This document shows positions 11,832 to 25,976 of a stretch of 48,329 nt of DNA, piece after piece. The notes under the pieces are model-generated. The model was not told the DNA's origin and made no database searches. It saw nothing but the letters and a program-made list of their open reading frames with translations. The number at the start of each line of letters is the position of its first letter. The stretch's first letter is position 1. This DNA is from Candidatus Omnitrophota bacterium (GTDB taxonomy: Bacteria > Omnitrophota > Gorgyraeia > Aquiviventales > Aquiviventaceae), in NCBI GenBank assembly GCA_016206685.1, contig JACQRB010000056.1:1-48329 (forward strand). Reading direction: 5' to 3'. Both the position numbers and the translations under genes were made by a program.

Positions 11832-12497
11832 ATGTGCTGCTTGACCCCTATGCTGACGCCTGACTACGAGAAAATCGTCCAGGGCGGCAAGTACCTCGCC
11901 TCAAATCCTCCTTCCAGTAGGATTCCGCACCTTTTAGCCGTAAAGCTCATGTTCCTTGCTGATCGTTACCATTTGCGGAAATATGGGCGGCTCATAACGC
12001 GGGACAGTTATTGGGCTCTTAGATGGGGGCCTGTTGGTTCAGACACTATGAATTTGTTCAAACAGGATAAAGATTGGATTAGTGATGAAAAGCAACTTGC
12101 TTATTCGGTTAAGCATTTACACTTTGAATCGCAACGTCTTGAGCCTAAAGGGAAAGTTGACCTCAATGTTTTTTCCGATACGGATTTAGAAGCCCTCGAT
12201 TTCGCCTATAAAAATTTTGGTCATTCTCCATTTCCCATAGGAGCAAACAAGTGGCAATTTGAACTAGCAGAAAAAGTCACCCATCTATTTCCTGAATGGT
12301 ACACGCATAGAAAAATTGCAGAAAAATCACGCGACCACATAGAAATTCGGGAATTTTTTGGGGACCCTGACCCAAGCGATTCGGGTGTAGATCAACAAGA
12401 TTGGGCTAAATACCACCAATACGTTGAAATTTTTCGAGAACATACGAATCCCCATGCGGAAGCCATTTTTGATGAGGAAAATGCACGGAAGGAGTAA
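11832..12497 (+). CDS. Panacea-domain (formerly DUF4065) antitoxin-like protein
   Basis: A 221-aa protein whose first 120 residues match the Panacea domain: GGKYLASN, IPHLLAVKLMFLADRYHLRKYGRLI, DSYWALRWGPVGSDTMNLF, then FSDTDLEALDFAYKNFG. Panacea proteins are known as promiscuous antitoxins that neutralise very different toxin partners encoded next to them. The C-terminal 90 residues are charged and not recognisable, and may hold the partner contact. ATG 11832 follows AAAGGGGG. The partner starts immediately after the stop codon. Base composition is visibly more AT-rich than the flanking genes, suggesting transfer. Confidence 0.82.
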   Translation: MCCLTPMLTPDYEKIVQGGKYLASNPPSSRIPHLLAVKLMFLADRYHLRKYGRLITRDSYWALRWGPVGSDTMNLFKQDKDWISDEKQLAYSVKHLHFESQRLEPKGKVDLNVFSDTDLEALDFAYKNFGHSPFPIGANKWQFELAEKVTHLFPEWYTHRKIAEKSRDHIEIREFFGDPDPSDSGVDQQDWAKYHQYVEIFREHTNPHAEAIFDEENARKE

Positions 12498-12965
12498 ATG
12501 TCGGACCGTCCCCTTGTTGAAAGGGTTCGAGCTTGCCTTCAGCCAGGTGCCATCCTTCGGTTTCCTTTCCGTGGATCAGGTCAACCGCACTACCATGTTT
12601 TGCTCCTCCTGCCTACAGACGAAGAACGTCTAATTTTTGTAGTTGCCTCCAGCAAAGTCGAAGAGAGAAAGAAAGCGCGTGATCTTCCGAACATTCCTAC
12701 CCATACCCTCGTTGAAATCAATATCAGGGATTTTGAATGGGTAACGAAGCCCACTATTTTCGACTGCAACAGTCCAGAACTAATCCATGAAGTTCAACTC
12801 CTCGAATGTATCCGTCCTTTTGATGAGCAAGGAAAAAAATGGGAATACGGAACCGTTGGAAATGGACTTCTCGAAAAGCTACTTAATGGAGTCCAAGACA
12901 GTCCAGTGGCAGATAAGAGGATAAGAGCTATGGTTAGGATGAGGCCGTTACTTAAAAGGGATTAA
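12498..12965 (+). CDS. Candidate toxin partner of the Panacea antitoxin, PemK/MazF-like fold suspected
   Basis: A 155-aa protein beginning directly after the antitoxin stop, with GGAG overlapping that stop. The N-terminal two thirds look like a small beta-barrel: PGAILRFPF, HYHVLLLLP, RLIFVVASSKVEERKKA, HTLVEINIRDFEWVT and KPTIFDCNSPELI. The order (Pro-Gly entry strand, HY.VLL strand, ASSK strand, DCN turn) resembles PemK-type SH3-barrel endoribonucleases, but I cannot confirm catalytic residues. The C-terminal part is charged. Its role as a toxin is inferred mainly from its neighbour and gene order (antitoxin first). Confidence 0.65.
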   Translation: MSDRPLVERVRACLQPGAILRFPFRGSGQPHYHVLLLLPTDEERLIFVVASSKVEERKKARDLPNIPTHTLVEINIRDFEWVTKPTIFDCNSPELIHEVQLLECIRPFDEQGKKWEYGTVGNGLLEKLLNGVQDSPVADKRIRAMVRMRPLLKRD

Positions 12966-14328: not shown

Positions 14329-15219
14329 ATGAATCTAATGAGTGAAGATCAGACACGAGCTTACCTTGAAGAACTCCGCTGGCCGAACGGCGCACAATGC
14401 CCGTTTTGCACGCTTCACCAGGTTACAAAGCTCAACGGCAAACGGCCTGGCTTTTATCAATGCAATCGCTGCCGCAAGCAGTTTACTGTGCGAACAGGCT
14501 CGATCTTTGAGCGGTCGCACGTCCCGCTCTCCAAGTGGCTCCAGGCCGTCCACCTGCTATGCGCCAGTAAGAAGGGCATGAGCGCCTTGCAGGTGTCGCG
14601 GATGCTTGAGGTCAGCTACAAGACAGCCTGGTTTCTGTGCCACCGGATTCGAGAGGCGATGCGCTCACCTGGGGGCTTGCTGACGGGTACAGTCGAGGTT
14701 GATGAAACCTACGTTGGTGGGAAGGAAAAGAACGCGCAGCGAGGACGCAGCACCCGCAAGAAAACGCCGCTCGTCGCCGTCATTCAGCGCAACGGCAAGG
14801 TACGGACTCAGGTCGTGCGTTCGGTGTCTGCCGCCAACCTGATGCGTGTCCTCAAAGAGAATGTTGACGTGGAATCAACCCTGATGACAGATGATTTCAT
14901 GTCGTACCGCCACGTCGATGAAGTGTTCTATCAACATGAAGCGGTGGTTCACAGCAAGAAGGAATACGCGCGGGGCAATGTCCATGTGAACAACTGCGAG
15001 TCCTTCTTTGCCTTGCTCAAGCGTGGCCTCATGGGGAGCTTCCACCATGTCTCGCGTAAGCACCTGGGGCGTTACTCCAATGAGTTTGCGTTTCGGTGGG
15101 ATACACGCAAGATCACAGACGCCGAACGGGTAGAGGCGGCTTTACGGCTTGCAGAGGGGAAGAGACTGATGTATTGTGATCTCACCAATGGGGAAACGGC
15201 CAAAGCGCAAGCCAACTAA
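14329..15219 (+). mobile_element. IS1595-family (ISXO2-like) transposase gene
   Basis: A 296-aa transposase. The N-terminus has a zinc ribbon (CPFC ... CNRC, residues about 25-48) as in IS1595/ISXO2. The catalytic domain shows VEVDETYVGGKEK, LMTDDFMSYR and NNCESFFALLKRGLMG, fitting the DDE/DDN-type triad of the family (ISXO2-like domain). It appears full length, with no frameshift. I could not find convincing terminal inverted repeats; a direct near-repeat TTG(T/C)TGACTTAT flanks the gene at 14290-14301 and 15336-15347. It probably marks how the accessory island was assembled. Confidence 0.92.
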
Positions 15220-15319: not shown

Positions 15320-15375
15320 TCAGTCCGCGAAGTTATTGCTGACTTATAGTGATAATTCCGAATAAAAAATATCAT

Positions 15376-15404
15376 TTGACAATAACTGCTACATTTGCCA
15401 TACT
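15376..15404 (+). promoter_or_regulatory. Promoter of the MerR-ExeA-secretin operon
   Basis: Consensus TTGACA (15376-15381), a 17-nt spacer and CATACT (15399-15404), followed by a leader of about 22 nt to ATG 15434. It is the only good promoter upstream of the six-gene secretin module. Confidence 0.6.
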
Positions 15405-15433
15405 AACAGGTTTTTTTCGAAGGTCCATCAAAA

Positions 15434-15694
15434 ATGAAGACGACGACCATCTTGCTCACCGCCGGCGACATCATCGAGCGCTACCGCCTGTCCTACCAGA
15501 CCCTCAACTACTACACCAACCTGGGGCTCTTGCGGGTGGCCAAACGCGACGGGCATCAGCGGCTCTACGACGGGCGCGATGTCCAACGCAACCTCCAGGC
15601 GGTTGCCCGGCTCAAGGACGAAGGCTATCCCTTGCGGCTGATCTCGCGGATGCTGACCCAAGGGCTCTCCGCGTTGAAGGTGAGCGTGGGATGA
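15434..15694 (+). CDS. MerR-family DNA-binding regulator, minimal
   Basis: An 86-aa protein consisting almost only of a MerR-type winged helix: LTAGDIIERYRLSYQTLNYYTNLGLL (helix-turn-helix with the Y.T...YY..LGLL pattern), then DGHQRLYDGRDVQRNLQAVARLKDEGYPLRLI. The long dimerisation helix and ligand domain of full MerR regulators are missing. It stands first in the secretin operon behind a strong promoter and overlaps the ATPase gene by ATGA, so it probably controls this operon. No effector is predictable. Confidence 0.85.
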   Translation: MKTTTILLTAGDIIERYRLSYQTLNYYTNLGLLRVAKRDGHQRLYDGRDVQRNLQAVARLKDEGYPLRLISRMLTQGLSALKVSVG

Positions 15695-16563
15695 GCTACT
15701 ACCGGTTGCTCGGACTGGACCGCGAGCCCTTTTCGACCAATCCGGACCCGGCGTTTTTCTACCAGTCGCCGCAATACCGCGACACGCTGGCCAACCTCAT
15801 CATCGAGTTCCGGCTCAAGCGGGGCTTGAGCGTGGTCCTGGGCGACATCGGCGTCGGCAAGACCACGCTCGGGCGCAAGCTCATCCAGATGCTGCGGGAG
15901 CGCTCCAACTTTCTCTTCCACATGATCCTGGATCCCACCTATCCGTCTGAGGAGCTCTTCTTCCATGACCTCACCCGCACGCTGGGGATCGAGCTGCCCT
16001 GGCAGACCCCGACGCTGGTTGACTACCGGGATGCGCTGGAGCGGTTCCTGTTCCGCAAGGCCCTGCAGGAGGAGCAGACGATCGTGCTCATCATTGACGA
16101 AGCCCACAAGCTCAACGAGCTTTCCCTGGAAGTGTTGCGCCTCCTCCTGAACTATGAGACCAACGACGCCAAGCTCCTGCAGCTGGTGCTCTTGGGGCAA
16201 ATGGAGCTGCTGCCCCTCCTCATGGGCCTGCCCAACGTCGTCGATCGCATCAGCTTGAAGGGCACCTTGACACCGCTCACCTTGCTTGAAACCCACGAGT
16301 TGATCGCCTTCCGCCTGGAGGAGGCGGGCTACCGCTCGCACATCCCTCTGTTCAGCCCGGAGGCGGTTGAGACCATCTGCGCGTATACGGAAGGCTATCC
16401 CCGCCGGATCGCGATGGTGTGCCACCAGGCGTTGCGCCAGCTGGTCATGCGCCGGGAGCGATCGGTTAATGAGGGCTTGGTGGAGGAGCTGATTCAACAC
16501 GAGATGGAGTCGGGATGGGATCCGCCAAGAAGGGCAAGGAAACTCCAGCCGAGCAGTTGCTGA
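15691..16563 (+). CDS. ExeA-like AAA ATPase of the secretin module
   Basis: A 290-aa ATPase of the ExeA/GspA type (TIGR03015-like, seen in secretion and PEP-CTERM EPS loci). The start MSYYRLLGLDREPFSTNPDPAFFYQSPQ is the classical ExeA N-terminus. Walker A GDIGVGKTT is near residue 51, Walker B VLIIDEAHKL near 131, and VVDRISLKGTLTPLT carries the sensor region. In Aeromonas, ExeA helps its secretin assemble across the peptidoglycan. This copy lacks the C-terminal peptidoglycan-binding domain and any transmembrane helix, so it is probably cytoplasmic. It overlaps the GspC-like gene by 49 nt. Confidence 0.88.
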   Translation: MSYYRLLGLDREPFSTNPDPAFFYQSPQYRDTLANLIIEFRLKRGLSVVLGDIGVGKTTLGRKLIQMLRERSNFLFHMILDPTYPSEELFFHDLTRTLGIELPWQTPTLVDYRDALERFLFRKALQEEQTIVLIIDEAHKLNELSLEVLRLLLNYETNDAKLLQLVLLGQMELLPLLMGLPNVVDRISLKGTLTPLTLLETHELIAFRLEEAGYRSHIPLFSPEAVETICAYTEGYPRRIAMVCHQALRQLVMRRERSVNEGLVEELIQHEMESGWDPPRRARKLQPSSC

Positions 16564-17192
16564 GGATGATCGAAGGTCCGGCCGGCGCCGCCAACGTACC
16601 ACACGCGTCGGCCTCGCCATCGCTCAGGCAGCTGTGGGCCGGCTTGCAGGAGCTGCCGGGACGCCTCTTGTCTCGGCTGCGACCCGCCCGACGGGAGACC
16701 GACGCGTTCCTGTGGAACCTGACGATGGCGCAGCGGCTCCTCTGGGGCGTGCTGCTGGCGTTGGGGGCGTATGTCGCGTTCGATTTGGTCGTCGTGCAGC
16801 CCAGGCCGAAGCTTGGGCGCAGGGTCGCGACCGCCACTGTGGAGCCGGCGACGGAGTCCCCGGGAGCCTCCGGCAGTCCCGCGAGTGCGCTCAAGCCGCT
16901 TGCCGAGTATCTGGCCGTCGTGCAACAGGCCAGTCCGTTCGGCGGGGCCGCCTCGATCATCGCCGCCCCCGCCGCGCAAAGCACGAAACAGCGGCTTGCG
17001 GAGCTGGCACAGGGGCTGGTGGTGGTCGGGATCGACCGCAGCGCCAATCCAGAGGCGATCATCGAAGATACGACGCAAAAGCGCACGTATTTCATTAAGG
17101 TGGGTGATGAGCTCAACGGGATGGCCGTTAAGGACATCAGTGTCAAGGGGGTCATCGTCAGCTATGAAGGGGAAGAGCTCCTCGTCAAGTAA
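16515..17192 (+). CDS. GspC/PilP-like inner-membrane protein
   Basis: A 225-aa bitopic protein. An N-terminal cytoplasmic part of about 75 residues is followed by the helix LLWGVLLALGAYVAFDLVVV, an Ala/Pro-rich linker, and a periplasmic domain near residues 155-225 (LAELAQGLVVVGIDRSANPE, EAIIEDTTQKRTYFIKVGDEL, VKGVIVSYEGEELLV). The last part matches the homology region of GspC/PilP, which touches the N0 domain of the secretin. It likely connects the inner membrane to the secretin encoded next. Length and layout fit GspC without a PDZ domain. Confidence 0.78.
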   Translation: MGSAKKGKETPAEQLLRMIEGPAGAANVPHASASPSLRQLWAGLQELPGRLLSRLRPARRETDAFLWNLTMAQRLLWGVLLALGAYVAFDLVVVQPRPKLGRRVATATVEPATESPGASGSPASALKPLAEYLAVVQQASPFGGAASIIAAPAAQSTKQRLAELAQGLVVVGIDRSANPEAIIEDTTQKRTYFIKVGDELNGMAVKDISVKGVIVSYEGEELLVK

Positions 17193-17334: not shown

Positions 17335-19023
17335 ATGGCCGTCTGGCTCGTCGGCGGCGGTGTCTGGTTGAGCCTGCCGGCGGCGGCCCGCTCGGAGGAT
17401 GCGCTCGAGGATGCCCTCCTGGAGACGGCCTCGGCCGAGCCCCCTACCACGTACCTGCGGGGCATGGAGGAGCGGGTGTCGCTGGATCTGCGCTCGACCG
17501 AGGCGACCGATGCGCTGAAATACCTGGCGACCAAAGGCGGCTTGAACATCGCGATCAGCAAGAACGTCGCGGGCCGCGTGAACCTGTTCCTGACGGATGT
17601 GCCGATCCGCGACGTCTTCGACTTGGTCCTGCGCAGCAACGAGCTCGCCTACGACAAGCAGGGCAACATCTACAACATCATGACCGAGGCCGAGTATCGC
17701 GCGCTCTACGGCAAGCGCTTCGCGGACCTGCGGCGCGTGGAGACCTTCCGCCTGAAGTACGCCATCCCAGAGCAGGCGTTCAACCTCTTGGATGCGCTCA
17801 AGAGCGAGATCGGCCGCTTGCTGGTTGACGAGGACTCCGGGACCGTCTCCGTCATGGATACGCCGGAGCGGTTGCGCCAGATGGAAGAGGCCCTCGGGAC
17901 CCTGGAGCAGGGCAACACCGTGCGCGTGTTCGATCTGCGCTACGCCAAGGCCAAGGACGTGGAGGAGCAATTGAAGGACCAGCTCGAATCCAAGAAGCTG
18001 GGCTTCATCAAGGCCGACGAGCGCAGCAACCAGGTGATCGTGCAGACCCTGCCCAACCGGATGAAGGACATCGAGCAGCTGGTCAAGGCCCTGGACCGCA
18101 AGACCCGCGAGGTGCTCATTGATGGCCGGATCGTGAAGGTCAGCCTGGTCAACGGCGCCGATACCGGCATCGACTGGGACAAGATATTCACGAACCTGAA
18201 ATTCCACGGGATTGACACGACGAACAGCTTCCGCACCACGACGACGGGCACGGCGCCGTCCGAGGTCCCCGGCGTCACCAAGATCCGGATTCCGGACATC
18301 AACCTGCCGGGAGTGAAAACCAAGTCCGGCACGGACCACGAACTGAAGTTGGGCCAGTTGGCGTTCGGGACCGTCGCGCGCGACGGCTATGAGCTGTTTC
18401 GCTACCTCCAGACTCTCGGCAAAACGAAGATCATGTCCAATCCGCGCATCCTGGTCACGGAGAACCAGGAAGCCCGCATCCATGTGGGCACGCGCGAGGC
18501 CTACGTGACGACGACCACGACGACCGGCCAGACCACGACGACCACCGCCGAAGAGGTCCAGTTCATCGACGTGGGAATCCAGCTCGTGGTGACCCCGAAG
18601 ATCAACGAGGATGGGTTCGTCACCATGAAGATCAAGCCGGAGATCTCCAGCGTGATCCGCACGCTCACCACGCCCAGCGGCAACGCGATTCCCATCGTGG
18701 ATACCTCCACCGCGGAGACGAACGTCATGGTGCAAGACGGGGCGACGGTGATCATCGGGGGCTTGCGCAAGGATGAGAAGAAAGTCACCGATAAGCAACT
18801 CCCGTATCTGGGTCGTATTCCGCTGATCGGGCCGGCCTTGTTCCGGGACCGCGACCAGGATGACGAGACCTCGGAGCTGGTGGTCTTCATCACCCCCCAT
18901 ATCGTCGCCGGCGATACCCTGGTGACGGGGGATGAGGAGGCGTTGGGTGGAGGCATCAAGCCGTACCGGGAGTATCAACCCCTGCTGGAAAAGCGCGCGC
19001 GCGTGGAGCCGCTGAAACCGTAG
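17335..19023 (+). CDS. Secretin (GspD/PilQ family)
   Basis: Outer-membrane secretin, 562 aa. Order: signal sequence (MAVWLVGGGVWLSLPAAARS), STN/N0-type domain (VSLDLRSTEATDALKYLA), two further N domains (about 130-270), then the secretin core with GYELFRYLQTLGKTKIMSNPR, EEVQFIDVGIQLVVTPKI and DGATVIIGGLRKDE, and the signature LPYLGRIPLIGPALF. The gate region holds a Thr run (VTTTTTTGQTTTTTAEE). The track frame from 16771 wrongly fuses a shadow of gspC. ATG 17335 lacks a ribosome-binding site and gives a signal without a basic start; GTG 17230, inside the repeat element, would supply one (SRSGRTRCLL). Confidence 0.93.
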   Translation: MAVWLVGGGVWLSLPAAARSEDALEDALLETASAEPPTTYLRGMEERVSLDLRSTEATDALKYLATKGGLNIAISKNVAGRVNLFLTDVPIRDVFDLVLRSNELAYDKQGNIYNIMTEAEYRALYGKRFADLRRVETFRLKYAIPEQAFNLLDALKSEIGRLLVDEDSGTVSVMDTPERLRQMEEALGTLEQGNTVRVFDLRYAKAKDVEEQLKDQLESKKLGFIKADERSNQVIVQTLPNRMKDIEQLVKALDRKTREVLIDGRIVKVSLVNGADTGIDWDKIFTNLKFHGIDTTNSFRTTTTGTAPSEVPGVTKIRIPDINLPGVKTKSGTDHELKLGQLAFGTVARDGYELFRYLQTLGKTKIMSNPRILVTENQEARIHVGTREAYVTTTTTTGQTTTTTAEEVQFIDVGIQLVVTPKINEDGFVTMKIKPEISSVIRTLTTPSGNAIPIVDTSTAETNVMVQDGATVIIGGLRKDEKKVTDKQLPYLGRIPLIGPALFRDRDQDDETSELVVFITPHIVAGDTLVTGDEEALGGGIKPYREYQPLLEKRARVEPLKP

Positions 19024-19025
19024 CC

Positions 19026-20108
19026 ATGCCTGAGCCAGCCCTCGTGCCAGGATCCCAGAAACCCGGCGGGCCGCTGGGAAGTGGGACCATGTGGCTCGTG
19101 GCCCTGCTGGTCATCGCCAGCGGGGGGGCGACCTACTTTGGCTGGCGCGCCCAACAACTGACCACCACCTTGCACCAGTTGACCCATCAGCGGGAGGGGG
19201 TTGAAGAGGCCCAGACGACGCTGCAAACTCGCTGGCAGACGATCCAGACGCAGTACGACGAGCTCACCAAGACCCACCAGGCGCTGAGCCAGGATCGTGA
19301 CAACCTCATCGCCCAAGTGGCGGGCACGAAGGAAACCTTGGAGCGCCAACGCGAGGAAACCGCTCGGCACGAGTCGGCGGCCCGGCAGACCGCGGCTGAG
19401 CGGGATCTGTTGGCGTCCCTGCTCAAGAAGGCCGCCCAGGAGCACCAGGCGTTGAGCGGCCAGGTGGGGCCGCTCCAGGAACAGCTCCAAGAGCTCGAGC
19501 GCGTCTACGACCAAGCTCTTCAGGAGCGGGATGCCCTCAAAGGCGACCTGGCCAAGGCGCTCCAGAAAACCCATGAGAAGCAGCTCAAACAAGACCTGGC
19601 CTCGCAGCGCAAGGAGCGCCAGGAGCTGGAGCGGCAGTTGCGCTCGGCCCAGCGAGAGATGGGAGAAATCCAGGGGCGCGAAACGCGCGTGAAGAAACAA
19701 TTGAAGTCGCTCCAAGAGGATTACGCGAAGGTGGCCGCCGACCGCAATCGGCTCAGGCGGCAGAACACCATGATTCCCAGCGACGTCAACCAACTGGCGC
19801 GGGAGCACCAGCGTCTGTTGAAGGAGACGGCCGACATGCACTACAACCTGGGGGTGCTCTTCAGCGAGCAAAAGCAGTATGCCCAGGCGGCGGCGGAGTT
19901 TGGCAAAGTCATCGAGCTGCGTCCCGATGACGCGGATACCTACTACAACCTCGGGGTGATCTATGCCGAGCATCTCCCGGACCGGGAGCGGGCGATCGCG
20001 CATTTCCGCCGGTATCTCAAGATCAATCCGCGGGCCCGAGATGCCAGTTGGGTCAAGCAGTACATCGCGTCCTGGCAAGCCTATGAGGCGAAAGAACGCC
20101 TGGAGTAG
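19026..20108 (+). CDS. Membrane-anchored coiled-coil protein with C-terminal TPRs
   Basis: A 360-aa protein with one transmembrane helix (MWLVALLVIASGGATYFGW, about residues 22-41). A coiled coil of about 220 residues follows (heptad-rich Gln/Glu/Arg, LKSLQEDYAKVAADRNRLRRQ at its end), then two TPR units: ADMHYNLGVLFSEQKQYAQAAAEF and ADTYYNLGVIYAEHLPDRERAIAHF. It would be anchored in the inner membrane with its long arm in the periplasm. The TPRs could dock a partner such as the secretin or the 1,179-aa protein. It lies 2 nt after the secretin stop and 4 nt before the next gene. It fits no named secretion component I know. Confidence 0.85.
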   Translation: MPEPALVPGSQKPGGPLGSGTMWLVALLVIASGGATYFGWRAQQLTTTLHQLTHQREGVEEAQTTLQTRWQTIQTQYDELTKTHQALSQDRDNLIAQVAGTKETLERQREETARHESAARQTAAERDLLASLLKKAAQEHQALSGQVGPLQEQLQELERVYDQALQERDALKGDLAKALQKTHEKQLKQDLASQRKERQELERQLRSAQREMGEIQGRETRVKKQLKSLQEDYAKVAADRNRLRRQNTMIPSDVNQLAREHQRLLKETADMHYNLGVLFSEQKQYAQAAAEFGKVIELRPDDADTYYNLGVIYAEHLPDRERAIAHFRRYLKINPRARDASWVKQYIASWQAYEAKERLE

Positions 20109-20112
20109 CGAC

Positions 20113-23100
20113 ATGAACAGCGGCACCTCCTCAGCATCTTGCGGGTTCAGAAACGGCGTGTGGGTCCGGGGATGGGTGGGCCTGATGCTGGTGCTTGGCC
20201 TGTCCGGGAGGCTCTTCGCCGATTCCCAGGACGCCCAAGGCACGTTCGAGAGCGCCTACAAACAAGGCCAGGCGCTCTACGAGCAGGGCAAGTACCAGGA
20301 AGCCACCGCCGCGTTCCAACGGGCGCTGCAGCTTATGGATCGCGATTCCTCTCATGGCGCTGCGGGGGGAGCGGCTCCTCCCCCCACGGCTGAGGAGTCC
20401 TCGGACTATCAGCAAGCCCTCAAGGAAGCTGTCGCCGTGCCAGTCCCGTCGGATGCCGTTGGGCATTCCCAGCTGACCTTCCTGGCGACCCAGATTGAAC
20501 AGTTCAAGACGGCCCTCGAGGTGAAAGAGGACGAGCTGCGACGATTCGCCCAGACGCTCGCCGAACGCGACCAGCAGGTGCAGCAAGCCGGCCGCGAGCG
20601 GGACCGGCAGGCCGCGAGGGTTTCTGAGCTGACAGGCAAGGTCCAAGCGATTCAAAGCGATAACCAGAATCTGCTGAAAGAGCGGGAGAGCCTCAAGCAG
20701 ACCAGCCATGAGCTTGAAGAGCGCGTGTCGGGCCTGCAAGAGGACCTGGCCGGGCTCAAGGGCCAATGGAGCACGGAGCTGGAGCAGACCAAACGCACGC
20801 TCGCGCAACGCGAAGCTGAGCTGGCGCTGGCCAGACAGGCGGACGTCAAACTCCAAGCGCAAACCGACCAACTCCGGACCCGCGACCTCCAACTGGCGCA
20901 ACTGCAGGAGCAGCTGCGCACCCTTCAGGACACGTACGCCGCGACCACGCGCGAGGCCGACGCGCTTCGGACGAACCTCTCGCCCATCACGGGCGAGTTC
21001 GAGCGGATGAAGCAAGCCTACGCGTCCGACCGGGAGGCGTTGAAACAGCTCACCAACGACCACGATCAACTGCAGGCCGAGCGCAACCAGTTGAAGGACA
21101 GTCTGCGCGTCGCGCAGCAGGCGAATGCGCAGCTCACCGATGACCTGGTGGGGGCGCGCTCCACGGCGAGCCAGCTTGAGGGGCAACTCGCGAAGCTGAA
21201 AAACGAGCTGGCGGGCCGTCAGCAAGACATGATGCGCACCCAGGACACGATGACGAAATCGGAAGGGCGCTTCACGCAGGCGACCCAAGAGCTTAAAACG
21301 CTCCGGGAGTCCAATGCGTCATTGCAGGCGCAACTCCGCCAGACCACGGATGAAGTCCTCGAGAGCCGGACGAAGCTGAAGGTCCAAGAAGAGCAGACCC
21401 AGCAGGCCCGCCAGGCCTTGACCCAAGCGCAGGAACGTCTCTCGAAGGTGAGTGTCGAGCGCGAGCAATCGCAGCAACAACTCAGCGCCCTGCAACAGGA
21501 GCAGGCCCAGACGCGGAATCAACTGGCTGGCCTGGCCCAGGAGACGGCGGCGGCGAAGGAGCGGGAGCGCAAGGCCACCGACCAACTGCAGTACGTGCGG
21601 GATCTGAACGCGCAACTGGCGAAGACCGGCGAACAGCAGGCGGCCAAATCCATGGAATCGGCCGCTCGTCTGCAGGCGGCGGATAGAGACCACCAGGCGC
21701 TGGCGAAGGAACTGGACCAGGCCAAACGCGCCAACCAACAGCTCGAAAAGCATCTGAAAACCGCCCAGGACGAGGCCACGCAGACCCGGGAGGGCTTTCG
21801 CAAGGAGCTGGACCAGGCCAGACAACTGCTCGGCAGCCGCGAAGAAGAGCTCGCCTCGGCGAAAGAGCAGGCCGCCCAGGCGCAGACGGCCGTGACTACC
21901 CTTGACCGGCAGCGGGCGGTCCTCGAGGGGCGCCTGACGTCGAAAGAGGAGGAGGCGCGGCGACTGACCCAGACCCTGGCCCAACACGATCAACAGCTCC
22001 AGCAGGTCTCACAGGAGCGGGATCAGCGGGACGTCAAGCTCGCTGAACTGGGTGCGCAGCTCCAAGCCGGCCGCAAGGATCAACAGACGACACTCGCCCA
22101 AGCGGAGGGCGCCAAGCGCGCCAACCGGGAGCTGGAGGAGCGTCTGCGGCTTGCGCAAAACGAGTTCACGCAGGCTCAAAGCCGGTGGAGTCGGGAGCTT
22201 GAGCAGGTGAATCGCACGCTCGCCAAGCGCGAGGCGGACCTGGCGACGGCCACGAAACAGCTCGAACAGGCGCAGGCCGACACCAGCACCCTGAAACAAC
22301 AGCAAGCCGTCCTCGAGCACCGCCTGCAGGAGCGCTCGACGGAGACACAGGAGCTGGAGCGCAAGATGGCCGCGCTGACCCAGCAGCTGCAACAAACCCA
22401 AAGCGACCTCACCGCCAATCAGCAGCAGGTGGCGGCGTTGCAGGAACGAGTCAATGAGCGCACGCAGCAACTCACAGGCCAGGGGGAAGAGCTCGCCCAG
22501 TCGCAGGCGCAGCTGCGCGACCTGGAACGCGCCTACGCGACCTCCAAGACCGAAGGGGAGCAGATGCGCACCACGCTGGCTTCGAAAGAAGAAGAGCTGC
22601 GGCGGCTCAGTCTCACCATGACGCAGGACCAGCAAGCGCTTCGGCAGGCGACCCAAGAAGCTACCGAGGCGCAGTTCCAGCGCAAGCATCTGGAAGAGCA
22701 GGTTCGGATCGCCAAAGAAACCCAGGGGGGATCGGAAGAGGAGTTGAAGTCCACGCGCCAGCAAGCCGCACGCCTGCAGGATCAACTGGTGGCCGCGCAG
22801 TCCGACCGGGACCGGTTCCGCAGCGGGATCGATCAGCGGGAGACGCAGCTGGGGCAACTGCAGGCCGAGTTGAGCGGCGTCCGACGGGAACTGGCCGGCG
22901 CGCAAGCCGAATCCAAGCAGGTCGAGCTCGGTGCCCAGGAGCGGGAGCAGCAGCTCGTCGTGGATCGCGAAGGCTACAAGTGGCAGGTTGATCGCCTGCA
23001 GCGCGAGCTGGAGCGCTCGCAGGCCGCTTACCGGCAACTGACCCAGGAGCGGGAGCAGCAGCTCAATGCCATCGCCCAGCGCACGGTCGGCAAGGAAGAT

Positions 23101-23652
23101 TACGACCGGGCTCAAGAAGCCTTAGCCGACGGCCGGACTCAGCTGGCCCGGCTCAACGCGGAGTTGACGGAGCGGGACCGCGTCATTGCGCAGCTTCGCA
23201 GCGATCTGGCCCAGCGGGAACGCGATGCCAAAGCCAGCCAACAAGCCCTGGGCAAGGCCCAGGAGCTGCTTCAGCTCTCGCCGTCGCTGCCGACGTCCGC
23301 CTCCGCATGGCCGAGGATGGGAGCGGGGCCTGGAGCCGGGACGGCGACGCCCGGCGCGGGATCCGCACAAGCGGTGGATGCGGCTGCTGAGGGAACCCAG
23401 GTGAGAGTCTATCGAGCGAACGAGGAGCACGGGTTCGTGGTCATCTCGGTCGAGGGGATGGCCAATCCTCAACCCGGCGATACCGTGCTGTTGTACGTCG
23501 GCAACCGGCCGGCCGCGGAAGTGCAGTTGGGGGACATTGACGACGACCGCATGGCGGTGGCGTATATCAAACGTAAGCTGGATCCCCACGCGACGATTCG
23601 CAAGGGCGACTTGGTCCTGGCGCGGCATTTTACCAAGCCCCAGGAAGAGTAA
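20113..23652 (+). CDS. Giant exported coiled-coil protein
   Basis: A 1,179-aa protein starting at ATG 20113 (the track start 19963 lies in the preceding gene). A signal sequence (WVRGWVGLMLVLGLSGRLFADSQ) is followed by one TPR (SAYKQGQALYEQGKYQEATAAFQ), about 950 residues of near-continuous coiled coil, a Ser/Gly/Pro-rich hinge near 1060-1090, and an 80-residue C-terminal beta domain (VRVYRANEEHGFVVISVEG, PQPGDTVLLYVGNRP, IRKGDLVLARHF) resembling SH3/FlgT-type folds. Internal long repeats start near residues 137, 611 and 825 (KE[ED]E.RR pattern). If extended, the coiled coil would exceed 100 nm. It is likely a periplasmic or surface scaffold for the secretin module. Confidence 0.85.
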   Translation: MNSGTSSASCGFRNGVWVRGWVGLMLVLGLSGRLFADSQDAQGTFESAYKQGQALYEQGKYQEATAAFQRALQLMDRDSSHGAAGGAAPPPTAEESSDYQQALKEAVAVPVPSDAVGHSQLTFLATQIEQFKTALEVKEDELRRFAQTLAERDQQVQQAGRERDRQAARVSELTGKVQAIQSDNQNLLKERESLKQTSHELEERVSGLQEDLAGLKGQWSTELEQTKRTLAQREAELALARQADVKLQAQTDQLRTRDLQLAQLQEQLRTLQDTYAATTREADALRTNLSPITGEFERMKQAYASDREALKQLTNDHDQLQAERNQLKDSLRVAQQANAQLTDDLVGARSTASQLEGQLAKLKNELAGRQQDMMRTQDTMTKSEGRFTQATQELKTLRESNASLQAQLRQTTDEVLESRTKLKVQEEQTQQARQALTQAQERLSKVSVEREQSQQQLSALQQEQAQTRNQLAGLAQETAAAKERERKATDQLQYVRDLNAQLAKTGEQQAAKSMESAARLQAADRDHQALAKELDQAKRANQQLEKHLKTAQDEATQTREGFRKELDQARQLLGSREEELASAKEQAAQAQTAVTTLDRQRAVLEGRLTSKEEEARRLTQTLAQHDQQLQQVSQERDQRDVKLAELGAQLQAGRKDQQTTLAQAEGAKRANRELEERLRLAQNEFTQAQSRWSRELEQVNRTLAKREADLATATKQLEQAQADTSTLKQQQAVLEHRLQERSTETQELERKMAALTQQLQQTQSDLTANQQQVAALQERVNERTQQLTGQGEELAQSQAQLRDLERAYATSKTEGEQMRTTLASKEEELRRLSLTMTQDQQALRQATQEATEAQFQRKHLEEQVRIAKETQGGSEEELKSTRQQAARLQDQLVAAQSDRDRFRSGIDQRETQLGQLQAELSGVRRELAGAQAESKQVELGAQEREQQLVVDREGYKWQVDRLQRELERSQAAYRQLTQEREQQLNAIAQRTVGKEDYDRAQEALADGRTQLARLNAELTERDRVIAQLRSDLAQRERDAKASQQALGKAQELLQLSPSLPTSASAWPRMGAGPGAGTATPGAGSAQAVDAAAEGTQVRVYRANEEHGFVVISVEGMANPQPGDTVLLYVGNRPAAEVQLGDIDDDRMAVAYIKRKLDPHATIRKGDLVLARHFTKPQEE

Positions 23653-23660
23653 CTGAAAAA

Positions 23661-25976
23661 CTAGCGGGTCTTCAACAACGCGGTGAAGTCAACGTCGCGT
23701 TGGTCGTGGTCAATGAGCTCCACCTGCCGGCTCAAGGGACTGAAATGGAGGATCTGGCTGGTCGGCAGGTTGCCGGAGCGGATGCTGGGCCGGAGGATGT
23801 ACGTGCCTGGCGGGAGGTCACTGGCCCGATAGAGGCCTTTGGCGTCCGTCGTCACGTAGCGCGATCGTTCACCCGCTCGTGCGAGCTCGATCGTCGCCCC
23901 TGCAAGCCGCCCCCCGGTGTCCGTGAGGATCTGGCCCGCGATGGTCAGGCTCGTTTCGCGCACGCGCACCCGAATCGTCTCGGCATCCTCCAGCGACCCG
24001 TCAGTGGCGACCACGGTGACGGCGTACGAGCCGGCCTGATCTGCTCGCGGGGTCCAGCTCAACACCCCGGTTCCGGCGCCGCGGGCTGTGAACGTCGCGC
24101 CATCCGGCAGGGGTGAGGCGGCGATCCCCACCGTTTCGTGATCGGGATCGCGGGCGCGCACCTCGAACGTCAGGAGCTTGCGCTCGTCCACCGAGCGGTC
24201 CCCGATCCGATCGAGGAGGGGCCTGCGGTTGGTATTGACGACCTTGATCGTCGTGCGCTGCCCGGCGCACTGTTGCTCCGGGTCACAGACTTCGAAGCGC
24301 ACATCCTGATGGAGCGTGGCGGGGGAATCCTGGGAGGTCAGGTCAAAGTCCGGGGTGCCGCCGGCTGAACAGGCGGCGGCATCGAAGCGCATCCAGGGCG
24401 GGAGCAGGAAGGCTTGACACGTCAGCGGATCCCCATCCGGATCCGTGACGATGGGGGTGATCGTCAGGGTCTTGCCCTCAGGGACGACGTGGGTGCCGAG
24501 TGGATTCATGACCGGAGGCCGGTTGACATTGATGACGCTGATCGCGATTTCCTCCCGGTCGCACAGGGGCTGGGTGTCGCAGACGTCGAAGCGGACGCCT
24601 TCATAGACCGTGGTAGACCGTTTCTGAGAGGCTTCGGTAAAATCCGGCGTGCCGTAGACTTGTCTCGTGGTCGGATCAAAGTGAGCCCAGGGGGGCAGGT
24701 TCGTCGCCTGGAAGGCGAGGGGATCTTTGGGGCCGTCCCGGTCTACCGCGCTGACCGTGAAGGCGAGGGTCACGCCCTCCGGGACGGTTTTGGACCCGAT
24801 CGGAATCAGCTCCGGGGCATGGTTGGCATTGAGGACTTTGACCTCGACCCGCTCGGCCGTGGTGGTGTTGTGGGCGCGATCGATCGCCAGGGCTTCAATG
24901 GCATGAGTCCCATTCGACACCGTCGTGGTGTCCCAACTGACCACATAGGGGTCGCTGACGGCCACGCCAACCGCCAGCCCATCCACCAGGAACTTCACCG
25001 TTTCGATCCCGATGGCATCGCCGGCCTCGGCCTGGAGTGTGACGGTGCCGGCCACGGGCGTTCCGGGCAGGGGAGCGATGAGATGCGCTCGCGGCGGGGT
25101 GTTATCCACGGTGACGGTCACGGGCGGCGTCGTGCCAAGATTGAGATCCGGATCGGAGGCGCTGGCGATGAGCGCGTGCGGGCCATCGGCGTCCCGGCGC
25201 GTGTCCCAACTGACTTCATACGGAGCCGTCTCATCAGTGCCGATGAGGGTCCCGTCTTTGGTGACCCTCACCTGGGTCACGCCTTCATGATCCGTTGCGC
25301 TGACGCGGATGGTGACCGTGCCCCTGAGCGTTTCTCCCTGCCTGGGCGCGTCGAGGACGACGCGGGGGGGTTGGGTATCGAAGCCGGAGCGGGACGCGCC
25401 TGTCAGGTTCTCACCCCGGAAGACCACCATCTCGCCAAGCTGGATCCCGGTAATCTTGACGGTGGAACCGGGCGCAAAACCCGGCGTCTGTCCCGCCGGC
25501 GCGAGGCGCCAGATGCGCCCCCGGCGATCGCGCAGCTGATAGGGAAAACGCTTGGGGGCGTCCGGCGCACTCGCGCGCAGAGGCTCAATGACGCCCTCCA
25601 GGCTGACCGAACGCTCCAGGACTGGTTGGACGTCGGGGGGCATCGTGTCGTAGGCGCCTTCCGGGAGGGCGGCTCGCAGCACGATGGCCGGGTCCATCGC
25701 GATGGTCGCCTTGAGGATGGCCTGGCGTCGGCTCACGAGCTGTCGCAGGCTCTTGGCGAGCGTCGCTCGCTCGGCGCCGCTGGCGTTGGCATACCGGTCG
25801 CGGGCGATCAGGACTTCCTTGGTGAGCTGGTCGAGCGAGATTGACTGGCCGGATCCGATGACGACTTTGACGTCTTTCGCCAGGCTCGCCGTTGAGGGAA
25901 GGCTGCACGCGGTTGCCAGGCACGCGGCCACAGCCCATCGCCGCGGGATGGCCGGACTTCCTCTGTGTGTTCGCAT
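23661..25976 (-). CDS. Exported multidomain surface protein (Ig-like, cadherin-like, carboxypeptidase-regulatory-like)
   Basis: A 771-aa protein with a signal sequence (RRWAVAACLATACSLPSTASLAK). An N-terminal region includes a small OB-like domain (about 130-190: VSLEGVIEPL, GSTVKITGIQLGEMVVF). Two Ig-like domains follow (PPRVVLDAPRQGETLRGTVTIRVSA and PPRAHLIAPLPGTPVAGTVTLQAEA), then three cadherin/He_PIG-type domains (NHAPELIPIG..., NRPPVMNPLG..., NRRPLLDRIG...) and a C-terminal carboxypeptidase-regulatory-like fold (AGQILTDTGGRLAGATIELA, DLPPGTYILRPS). Four Cys occur in two VCD..xxC loops. Probably a cell-surface or matrix protein; no anchor, PEP-CTERM or LPXTG motif is seen. Its stop is 8 nt from that of the coiled-coil gene. 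Confidence 0.85.
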   Translation of the reverse strand: MRTHRGSPAIPRRWAVAACLATACSLPSTASLAKDVKVVIGSGQSISLDQLTKEVLIARDRYANASGAERATLAKSLRQLVSRRQAILKATIAMDPAIVLRAALPEGAYDTMPPDVQPVLERSVSLEGVIEPLRASAPDAPKRFPYQLRDRRGRIWRLAPAGQTPGFAPGSTVKITGIQLGEMVVFRGENLTGASRSGFDTQPPRVVLDAPRQGETLRGTVTIRVSATDHEGVTQVRVTKDGTLIGTDETAPYEVSWDTRRDADGPHALIASASDPDLNLGTTPPVTVTVDNTPPRAHLIAPLPGTPVAGTVTLQAEAGDAIGIETVKFLVDGLAVGVAVSDPYVVSWDTTTVSNGTHAIEALAIDRAHNTTTAERVEVKVLNANHAPELIPIGSKTVPEGVTLAFTVSAVDRDGPKDPLAFQATNLPPWAHFDPTTRQVYGTPDFTEASQKRSTTVYEGVRFDVCDTQPLCDREEIAISVINVNRPPVMNPLGTHVVPEGKTLTITPIVTDPDGDPLTCQAFLLPPWMRFDAAACSAGGTPDFDLTSQDSPATLHQDVRFEVCDPEQQCAGQRTTIKVVNTNRRPLLDRIGDRSVDERKLLTFEVRARDPDHETVGIAASPLPDGATFTARGAGTGVLSWTPRADQAGSYAVTVVATDGSLEDAETIRVRVRETSLTIAGQILTDTGGRLAGATIELARAGERSRYVTTDAKGLYRASDLPPGTYILRPSIRSGNLPTSQILHFSPLSRQVELIDHDQRDVDFTALLKTR

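Follow-up and report, generated by a model that had tools for sequence, protein, structure and literature searches.

A length-variable giant coiled-coil protein with a C-terminal beta-barrel beside a GspA/GspB-type secretin operon in Candidatus Omnitrophota

Results

A giant coiled-coil gene closes a secretin operon

The window, by which we mean the whole 48,329-nt stretch of DNA analysed here, belongs as contig C47 to the genome of an uncultured groundwater bacterium, a Candidatus Omnitrophota MAG of 971 kb and 63% completeness. It carries an operon encoding, in order, an ExeA/GspA-like ATPase, a GspB-like membrane protein, a secretin, a TPR-tipped coiled coil and, as its final gene, a long coiled-coil protein that we call the giant (Table 1). 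The giant's ATG lies 4 bp past the stop codon of the preceding gene; its reading frame is open back to 19963, where a start would overlap that gene. Two other starts lean on relatives: the secretin frame is open from 16771, with the start near 17335 set by related sequences, and the true start of the ATPase is probably near 15,690, since its relatives have about 289 residues (orthologs at the same place are 62-73% identical). The second protein is termed GspB-like on the basis of its position, its HR-like sequence and a sub-threshold match of T2SSB (PF16537, E 0.005, below cut-off) to its ortholog in locus L048; the same model found no match on the window's own protein. The transmembrane segment of the TPR-tipped coiled coil was read by eye, and PilW, Tgl and MamA models matched this protein weakly, below cut-off.

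The Ig/cadherin-repeat protein encoded next to the giant recurs beside it in relatives, being 40-52% identical in L044, L045, L047, L048, L049 and L181. Directly beyond these two genes lies an exopolysaccharide cluster (26022-47233) with SLBB/Poly_export, Wzc-like kinase, Wzy-like ligase, glycosyltransferase, asparagine synthase and deacetylase genes; an SLBB gene likewise follows in L044 and L045.

Table 1. Features of the secretin operon, the giant and its downstream neighbour in the window
Feature	Position	Strand	Evidence
ExeA/GspA-like AAA ATPase	15349..16563	+	TIGR03015 E 6e-45, AAA_22; frame open from 15349
GspB-like membrane protein with C-terminal HR-like domain	16515..17192	+	position and C-terminal motif as in relatives
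Secretin, 562 aa (N0, N domains, secretin)	17335..19023	+	PF00263 E 3e-47, PF03958, PF07660
TPR-tipped coiled coil (N-terminal TM, ~220-residue coil, C-terminal TPRs)	19026..20108	+	PF13181 E 6e-11, other TPRs
Giant coiled-coil protein	20113..23652	+	1,179 aa, ORF confirmed
Giant, signal-peptide-like N-terminus, residues 1-36, ...LMLVLGLSGRLFA/DS	20113..20220	+	read by eye from sequence
Giant, TPR, residues 47-76	20251..20340	+	PF07719
Giant, coiled coil, residues ~119-1056	20467..23280	+	heptad spectrum; helices in AF2 model
Giant, repeat copy A, residues 138-240	20524..20832	+	self-comparison
Giant, repeat copy C, residues 260-359	20890..21189	+	self-comparison
Giant, repeat copy B, residues 515-614	21655..21954	+	self-comparison
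Giant, repeat copy A', residues 611-713	21943..22251	+	48/103 identical to A
Giant, repeat copy B', residues 645-744	22045..22344	+	43/100 identical to B
Giant, repeat copy C', residues 793-892	22489..22788	+	32/100 identical to C
Giant, C-terminal six-strand beta-barrel, residues 1095-1172	23395..23628	+	AF2 pLDDT ~95; 9-member alignment
Ig/cadherin-repeat protein with CarboxypepD_reg end	23661..25976	-	PF17957, PF05345, PF13620

The giant is a long coiled coil with old internal repeats

The original prediction described the giant as an exported coiled coil with a single TPR at its start, internal repeats and a C-terminal beta domain. Export is suggested by the signal-peptide-like start, which was judged by eye and is present in the relatives too. 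The TPR was recovered as a weak match (29.8 bits against a cut-off of 27), just above cut-off when the N-terminus was scanned alone. The long coil was borne out. Its hydrophobic period is 3.50, with a mean local power of 6.35 (best of 300 shuffles, 2.11), and this heptad periodicity is sustained without helix breakers except for a single in-coil proline, at residue 291, the other three of the four prolines in residues 119-1068 standing at the coil end. A full-length AlphaFold2 model of low confidence (mean pLDDT 57, pTM 0.26) agrees with the coil, predicting helix that is nearly unbroken from residue 122 to 1053 with interruptions near 280, 380, 515, 790, 870 and 992; at this confidence the packing of the coil cannot be read reliably from the model, and we rejected it as a guide to packing. 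Matches of SMC-family models to the giant (E 1e-28) fall far short of the cut-off and cover coil stretches only; the split ABC ATPase heads that characterise SMC and Rad50 are absent from it. An SMC, Rad50 or ATG16 identity was rejected, as the matches amount to coil resemblance only.

Self-comparison of the giant yields three repeat pairs. The best, A/A', is ungapped and corresponds to the blocks already noted near residues 137 and 611; its BLOSUM62 score over a 100-residue window is 231, against maxima of 84, 92, 129 and 92 in uniform, heptad-position, local heptad-position and 7-residue-block shuffles, respectively (100 of each). Pairs B/B' (score 200) and C/C' (155) had not been listed before. 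For all three, the proposed refutation, that a dot-plot would give generic heptad similarity only, fails. A/A' is visible even in the DNA (66% over 311 bases, E 1e-10), where it is the sole second match in the genome. A weaker copy reported near residue 825 (offset 214) is not established: its score per 50 residues is 86, where the null reaches up to 88, a marginal signal within the range of the strictest null. Codons agree at 29 of 47 conserved positions, only slightly more than the 22 expected from codon usage; this makes the duplication old, and a recent origin was rejected. We also rejected an assembly fault as the source of the repeats, there being no near-identical DNA repeats (the best is 75% over 72 nt). 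Each of the longer giants among the relatives has self-repeats of its own, at its own offsets, and the length of the giant appears to grow by lineage-specific internal duplication.

The C-terminal barrel recurs on short membrane-anchored proteins

The predicted C-terminal beta domain takes shape as a barrel: AlphaFold2 models the last 95 residues, together with 27 aligned relatives, as six strands. The 'SH3-like' label first given to this end holds loosely, in that it is a small barrel; the nearest structures found by Foldseek are instead the N-terminal beta-barrels of F1-ATPase and FliI (TM 0.58 over about 79 residues, E 0.005), which likewise have six strands but are just 5-17% identical, so that the fold shape is common and the family is not. 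The suggested HMM comparison with FlgT and LysM families gave no match to the giant for either. FlgT_C (PF16538) did not match it at E<=10 in its own genome and is absent from the Pfam matches of the C-terminus, which led us to reject FlgT membership, although this model weakly touches two further proteins with the barrel that the genome encodes (E 0.012 and 1.7). LysM was found neither at E<=10 in the scanned terminal regions nor in the whole-protein Pfam scan. A PDB sequence search with the C-terminus, alone and as a profile, gave nothing significant. The barrel profile resembles residues 313-348 of TsaP at E 0.073, which is sub-significant, a lead and no more. TsaP is a LysM protein found around the type IV pilus secretin and thus shares with the giant a weak barrel likeness and an association with a secretin, but with 411 residues it lacks the giant coil and its LysM has no counterpart in the giant, which we do not count as a TsaP.

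Among the relatives, the barrel is the most conserved portion of the giant, together with stretches of the coil that precedes it, the last ~170 coil residues being well conserved. At E<=0.001 the barrel profile matches in 145 of the 384 genomes of the class, with strong matches (E<1e-14) in only 11 or 12, the window's own genome included. The other barrel proteins that we read are mostly membrane-anchored coiled-coil proteins of 240-450 aa, found class-wide, which suggests a periplasmic placement of the barrel; from this we infer that the giant, too, is probably periplasmic.

The operon is conserved while the giant varies in length

The relatives lie on contigs mostly labelled as Candidatus Omnitrophota MAGs, many from groundwater. 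Their order is ATPase, GspB-like protein, secretin and TPR coiled coil, then in most cases a small secreted-type gene (missing in the window), the giant and often an Ig-repeat protein; it is complete in L045, L046, L048, L049, L051 and L181 and partial in L044 and L047. G195, assigned to another family, has the full order too. We define the giants as a family in which a C-terminal six-strand barrel follows a long coil, beside GspA, GspB, secretin and TPR coiled-coil genes.

Within this family the giant's length varies widely. Besides the window's own 1,179 aa, the secretin-adjacent giants have 359 (L047), 901, 959, 1,141, 1,179, 1,306, 1,611 and 1,862 aa, a five-fold range beside secretins that are 60-75% identical, and all share the end barrel; the neighbouring TPR-tipped coiled coils, where the start is clear, keep to 345-388 aa. 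In a FastTree secretin tree (without L181, and with 15 rows whose state is cut off by contig ends) all barrel-ended giants fall in a single clade of 12 rows, which has support 100. At the same operon position other clades of Omnitrophota carry giant coils of different kinds, and long coils occur there in three clades: one has giants of 1,913 and 2,601 aa with a barrel near the N-terminus, with L105 (2,670 aa) beside them, and a third has TPR coiled coils of 737-1,154 aa. The core module without a barrel-ended giant is present across the whole class.

The giants of 1,913-2,670 aa follow the TPR coiled coil (L171:1940-9952, L112:4686-12491, L135:12886-18627); they have a barrel-like N-terminal stretch, by profile in two of the three, and a C-terminus that is TonB-like by eye, without a Pfam match. 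The giant of G010 sits among unrelated or housekeeping genes, and the 9 kb read there contain no secretin. L182, from another Omnitrophota genome, encodes a protein of 3,300 aa with the giant's layout (L182:2829-12731; TPR-like start, 92% coil-like residues in the coil, C-terminal barrel) with no secretin in the stretch read around it.

Discussion

The adjacent ATPase, GspB-like and secretin genes are arranged as are GspA/GspB (ExeA/ExeB, OutB) and GspD in type II secretion, and the GspB-like protein shares with GspB a C-terminal HR-like domain. The likeness has limits: GspC, E, F, G-K, L and M (and gspC-gspO) were not found among the window proteins scanned, and the described type II systems have no counterpart of the TPR coiled coil or of the giant. 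The genome does carry GspF/PilC-type and pilin-like genes on contigs other than this one, and supply in trans is therefore possible. The GspA-like protein, with orthologs of about 289 aa, is an ATPase only; a peptidoglycan-binding region was not found after its AAA domains, as is the case for some known GspAs (PMC9239104). GspB, together with GspA, tethers the secretin by means of an HR domain that binds N0 as well as peptidoglycan (PMC9239104), and a secretin is likewise assembled by Tgl, a pilotin with TPRs (PMC10653833). As with the pilotins PilF, PilW and Tgl, which assemble PilQ, TPRs are found here beside a secretin; they differ in being carried by a membrane-anchored coiled coil and by the giant's start. 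By analogy, the operon may be a secretin-anchoring module in which the near-constant TPR coiled coil would be the likely periplasm-spanning tether.

The original prediction knew of no secretion component with the giant's layout, and we too found none described, next to secretion genes though it is; Pfam and NCBIfam hold no family for it, and a literature search on Omnitrophota with secretin, coiled coil or type II secretion gave nothing relevant. The giant ORFs reported for this phylum (PMC10066038) are >20 kb and of extracellular type, unlike the window's 3.5-kb coiled coil, which is absent from that survey, as is any mention of secretins or coiled coils. Coiled coils that serve secretin systems as accessory parts are, in principle, a known kind; the giant's layout and the evolution of its length are new.

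The explanation that we favour, while holding it to fall a little short of probable, is that the giant is a signal-peptide-bearing accessory scaffold or spacer of the GspA/GspB-type secretin, docked by its conserved C-terminal end. The kept operon order and the confinement of barrel-ended giants to one secretin clade argue for it, as do the barrel on short membrane-anchored coils and the precedents of GspB tethering and Tgl (PMC9239104; PMC10653833). Against it count G010 and L182, with no secretin in the stretches read, and the fact that a straight 940-residue coil would measure about 140 nm, far exceeding the periplasm, so that the giant must fold back, lie sideways or exit the cell. The giant would be exported by Sec and its coil segments would dimerise or fold back in the periplasm, while the conserved end (the barrel and last coil) would dock on the secretin complex, peptidoglycan or the outer membrane. 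The coil could then surround the pore as a tolerant scaffold or spacer and help to keep in place or position the channel, which would serve large surface proteins or the neighbouring exopolysaccharide system. For the periplasm-spanning piece, the TPR-tipped coiled coil would be the better candidate.

Exit from the cell is what the main rival proposes, with the giant as an exported surface rod or stalk that leaves through the neighbouring secretin and is anchored by its barrel or its N-terminal end. Adhesin stalks vary freely in length, which would fit a series from 359 to 1,862 aa with a conserved end and a signal-peptide-like start, and Ig-repeat proteins belong to the locus, with giant Ig-repeat ORFs of 3,910 and 5,960 aa in relatives. 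These surface-type ORFs, which close several loci, and the ~140 nm of a straight coil keep this reading in contention, but the same barrel on short membrane-anchored proteins places that domain in the periplasm, and an adhesin, an anchor and a sorting signal were looked for in the giant and none found; we consider a surface rod unlikely.

Coiled-coil rods commonly form filaments, and the giant might instead be a periplasmic structural filament, an envelope or cell-shape scaffold merely co-transcribed with the secretin operon. The giant beside housekeeping genes in G010 and the 3,300-aa version in L182 would suit a filament; its repeated association with the secretin operon in most of the family and the long coils at the same spot in three clades would not, and we judge it distinctly improbable. 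A long coil with a TPR at one end and a barrel at the other had also invited the idea of a rigid rod spanning the periplasm as a molecular ruler that sets the distance between the membranes. That idea did not survive the comparison of relatives: the partner TPR coiled coil hardly varies and the giant does, five-fold among close relatives, which makes a ruler unlikely, as would its length if straight, and we rejected it with little hesitation. Least credible of all, and scarcely worth retaining, is that the giant has no true internal repeats; coiled coils all resemble one another, as the SMC-family matches illustrate, yet A/A' far outscores the strictest shuffles and its DNA match is unique in the genome.

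Secretins are anchored differently in different bacteria, and the Omnitrophota, whose very small cells are uncultured and perhaps predatory, are a phylum known for giant surface proteins. Returning to the accessory scaffold, one can imagine that this phylum exports giant surface proteins through a GspA/GspB-secretin machine dedicated to them, with a barrel-fixed coil scaffold, not known elsewhere, that lengthens by self-duplication, long coils having been placed separately in at least three secretin clades; taken as a whole this picture is doubtful. The conserved operon, with its anchoring module, pore and length-variable giant coil, provides a concrete candidate export machine for Omnitrophota, and the natural length series of giants with the same end domain offers material for asking what coil length does.

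Associated genes in the window and its relatives

Giant Ig-repeat surface-type ORFs close the secretin locus at L168:1024-12756, L169:1684-19566, L170:2-9865 and L172:1043-10105, two of them being the 3,910- and 5,960-aa ORFs and the others having at least 3,288 and at least 3,021 aa (contig ends). The secretin module may be their exporter; one query of the window's own genome, which is 63% complete, did not find such an ORF.

A secreted-type family of 150-280 aa (..FWRGEL..MRGILS..) is encoded between the TPR coiled coil and the giant (L045:11947-12789, L048:7533-8222, L051:8138-8827, L061:8991-9647), with no Pfam match for the one member scanned. The C-terminal motif of these small genes (WRGE..MRGVLS..F.F) is also joined to an IS200/Y1-transposase-like N-terminus (PF01797) in further proteins (L081:8479-9747, L170:10289-11581, L087:15867-17291, L135:19803-21074), whose genes recurrently precede the giant Ig ORF. 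A fusion of cyclophilin with a SurA-like N-terminus, encoded near the secretin module (L081:6001-7452, L061:25-1491), is a possible periplasmic chaperone for the module's cargo.

In the window itself, a Panacea/SocA-like antitoxin domain protein (11832-12965) is followed immediately by a 155-aa ORF without a Pfam match, possibly forming a toxin-antitoxin pair, and then by an IS1595 transposase (14329-15219). Finally, secretin and TPR coiled-coil genes occur as tandem pairs in L058:5693-11425, L104, L113, L121-L123, L130 and L134, the first coil often having 600-1,154 aa.
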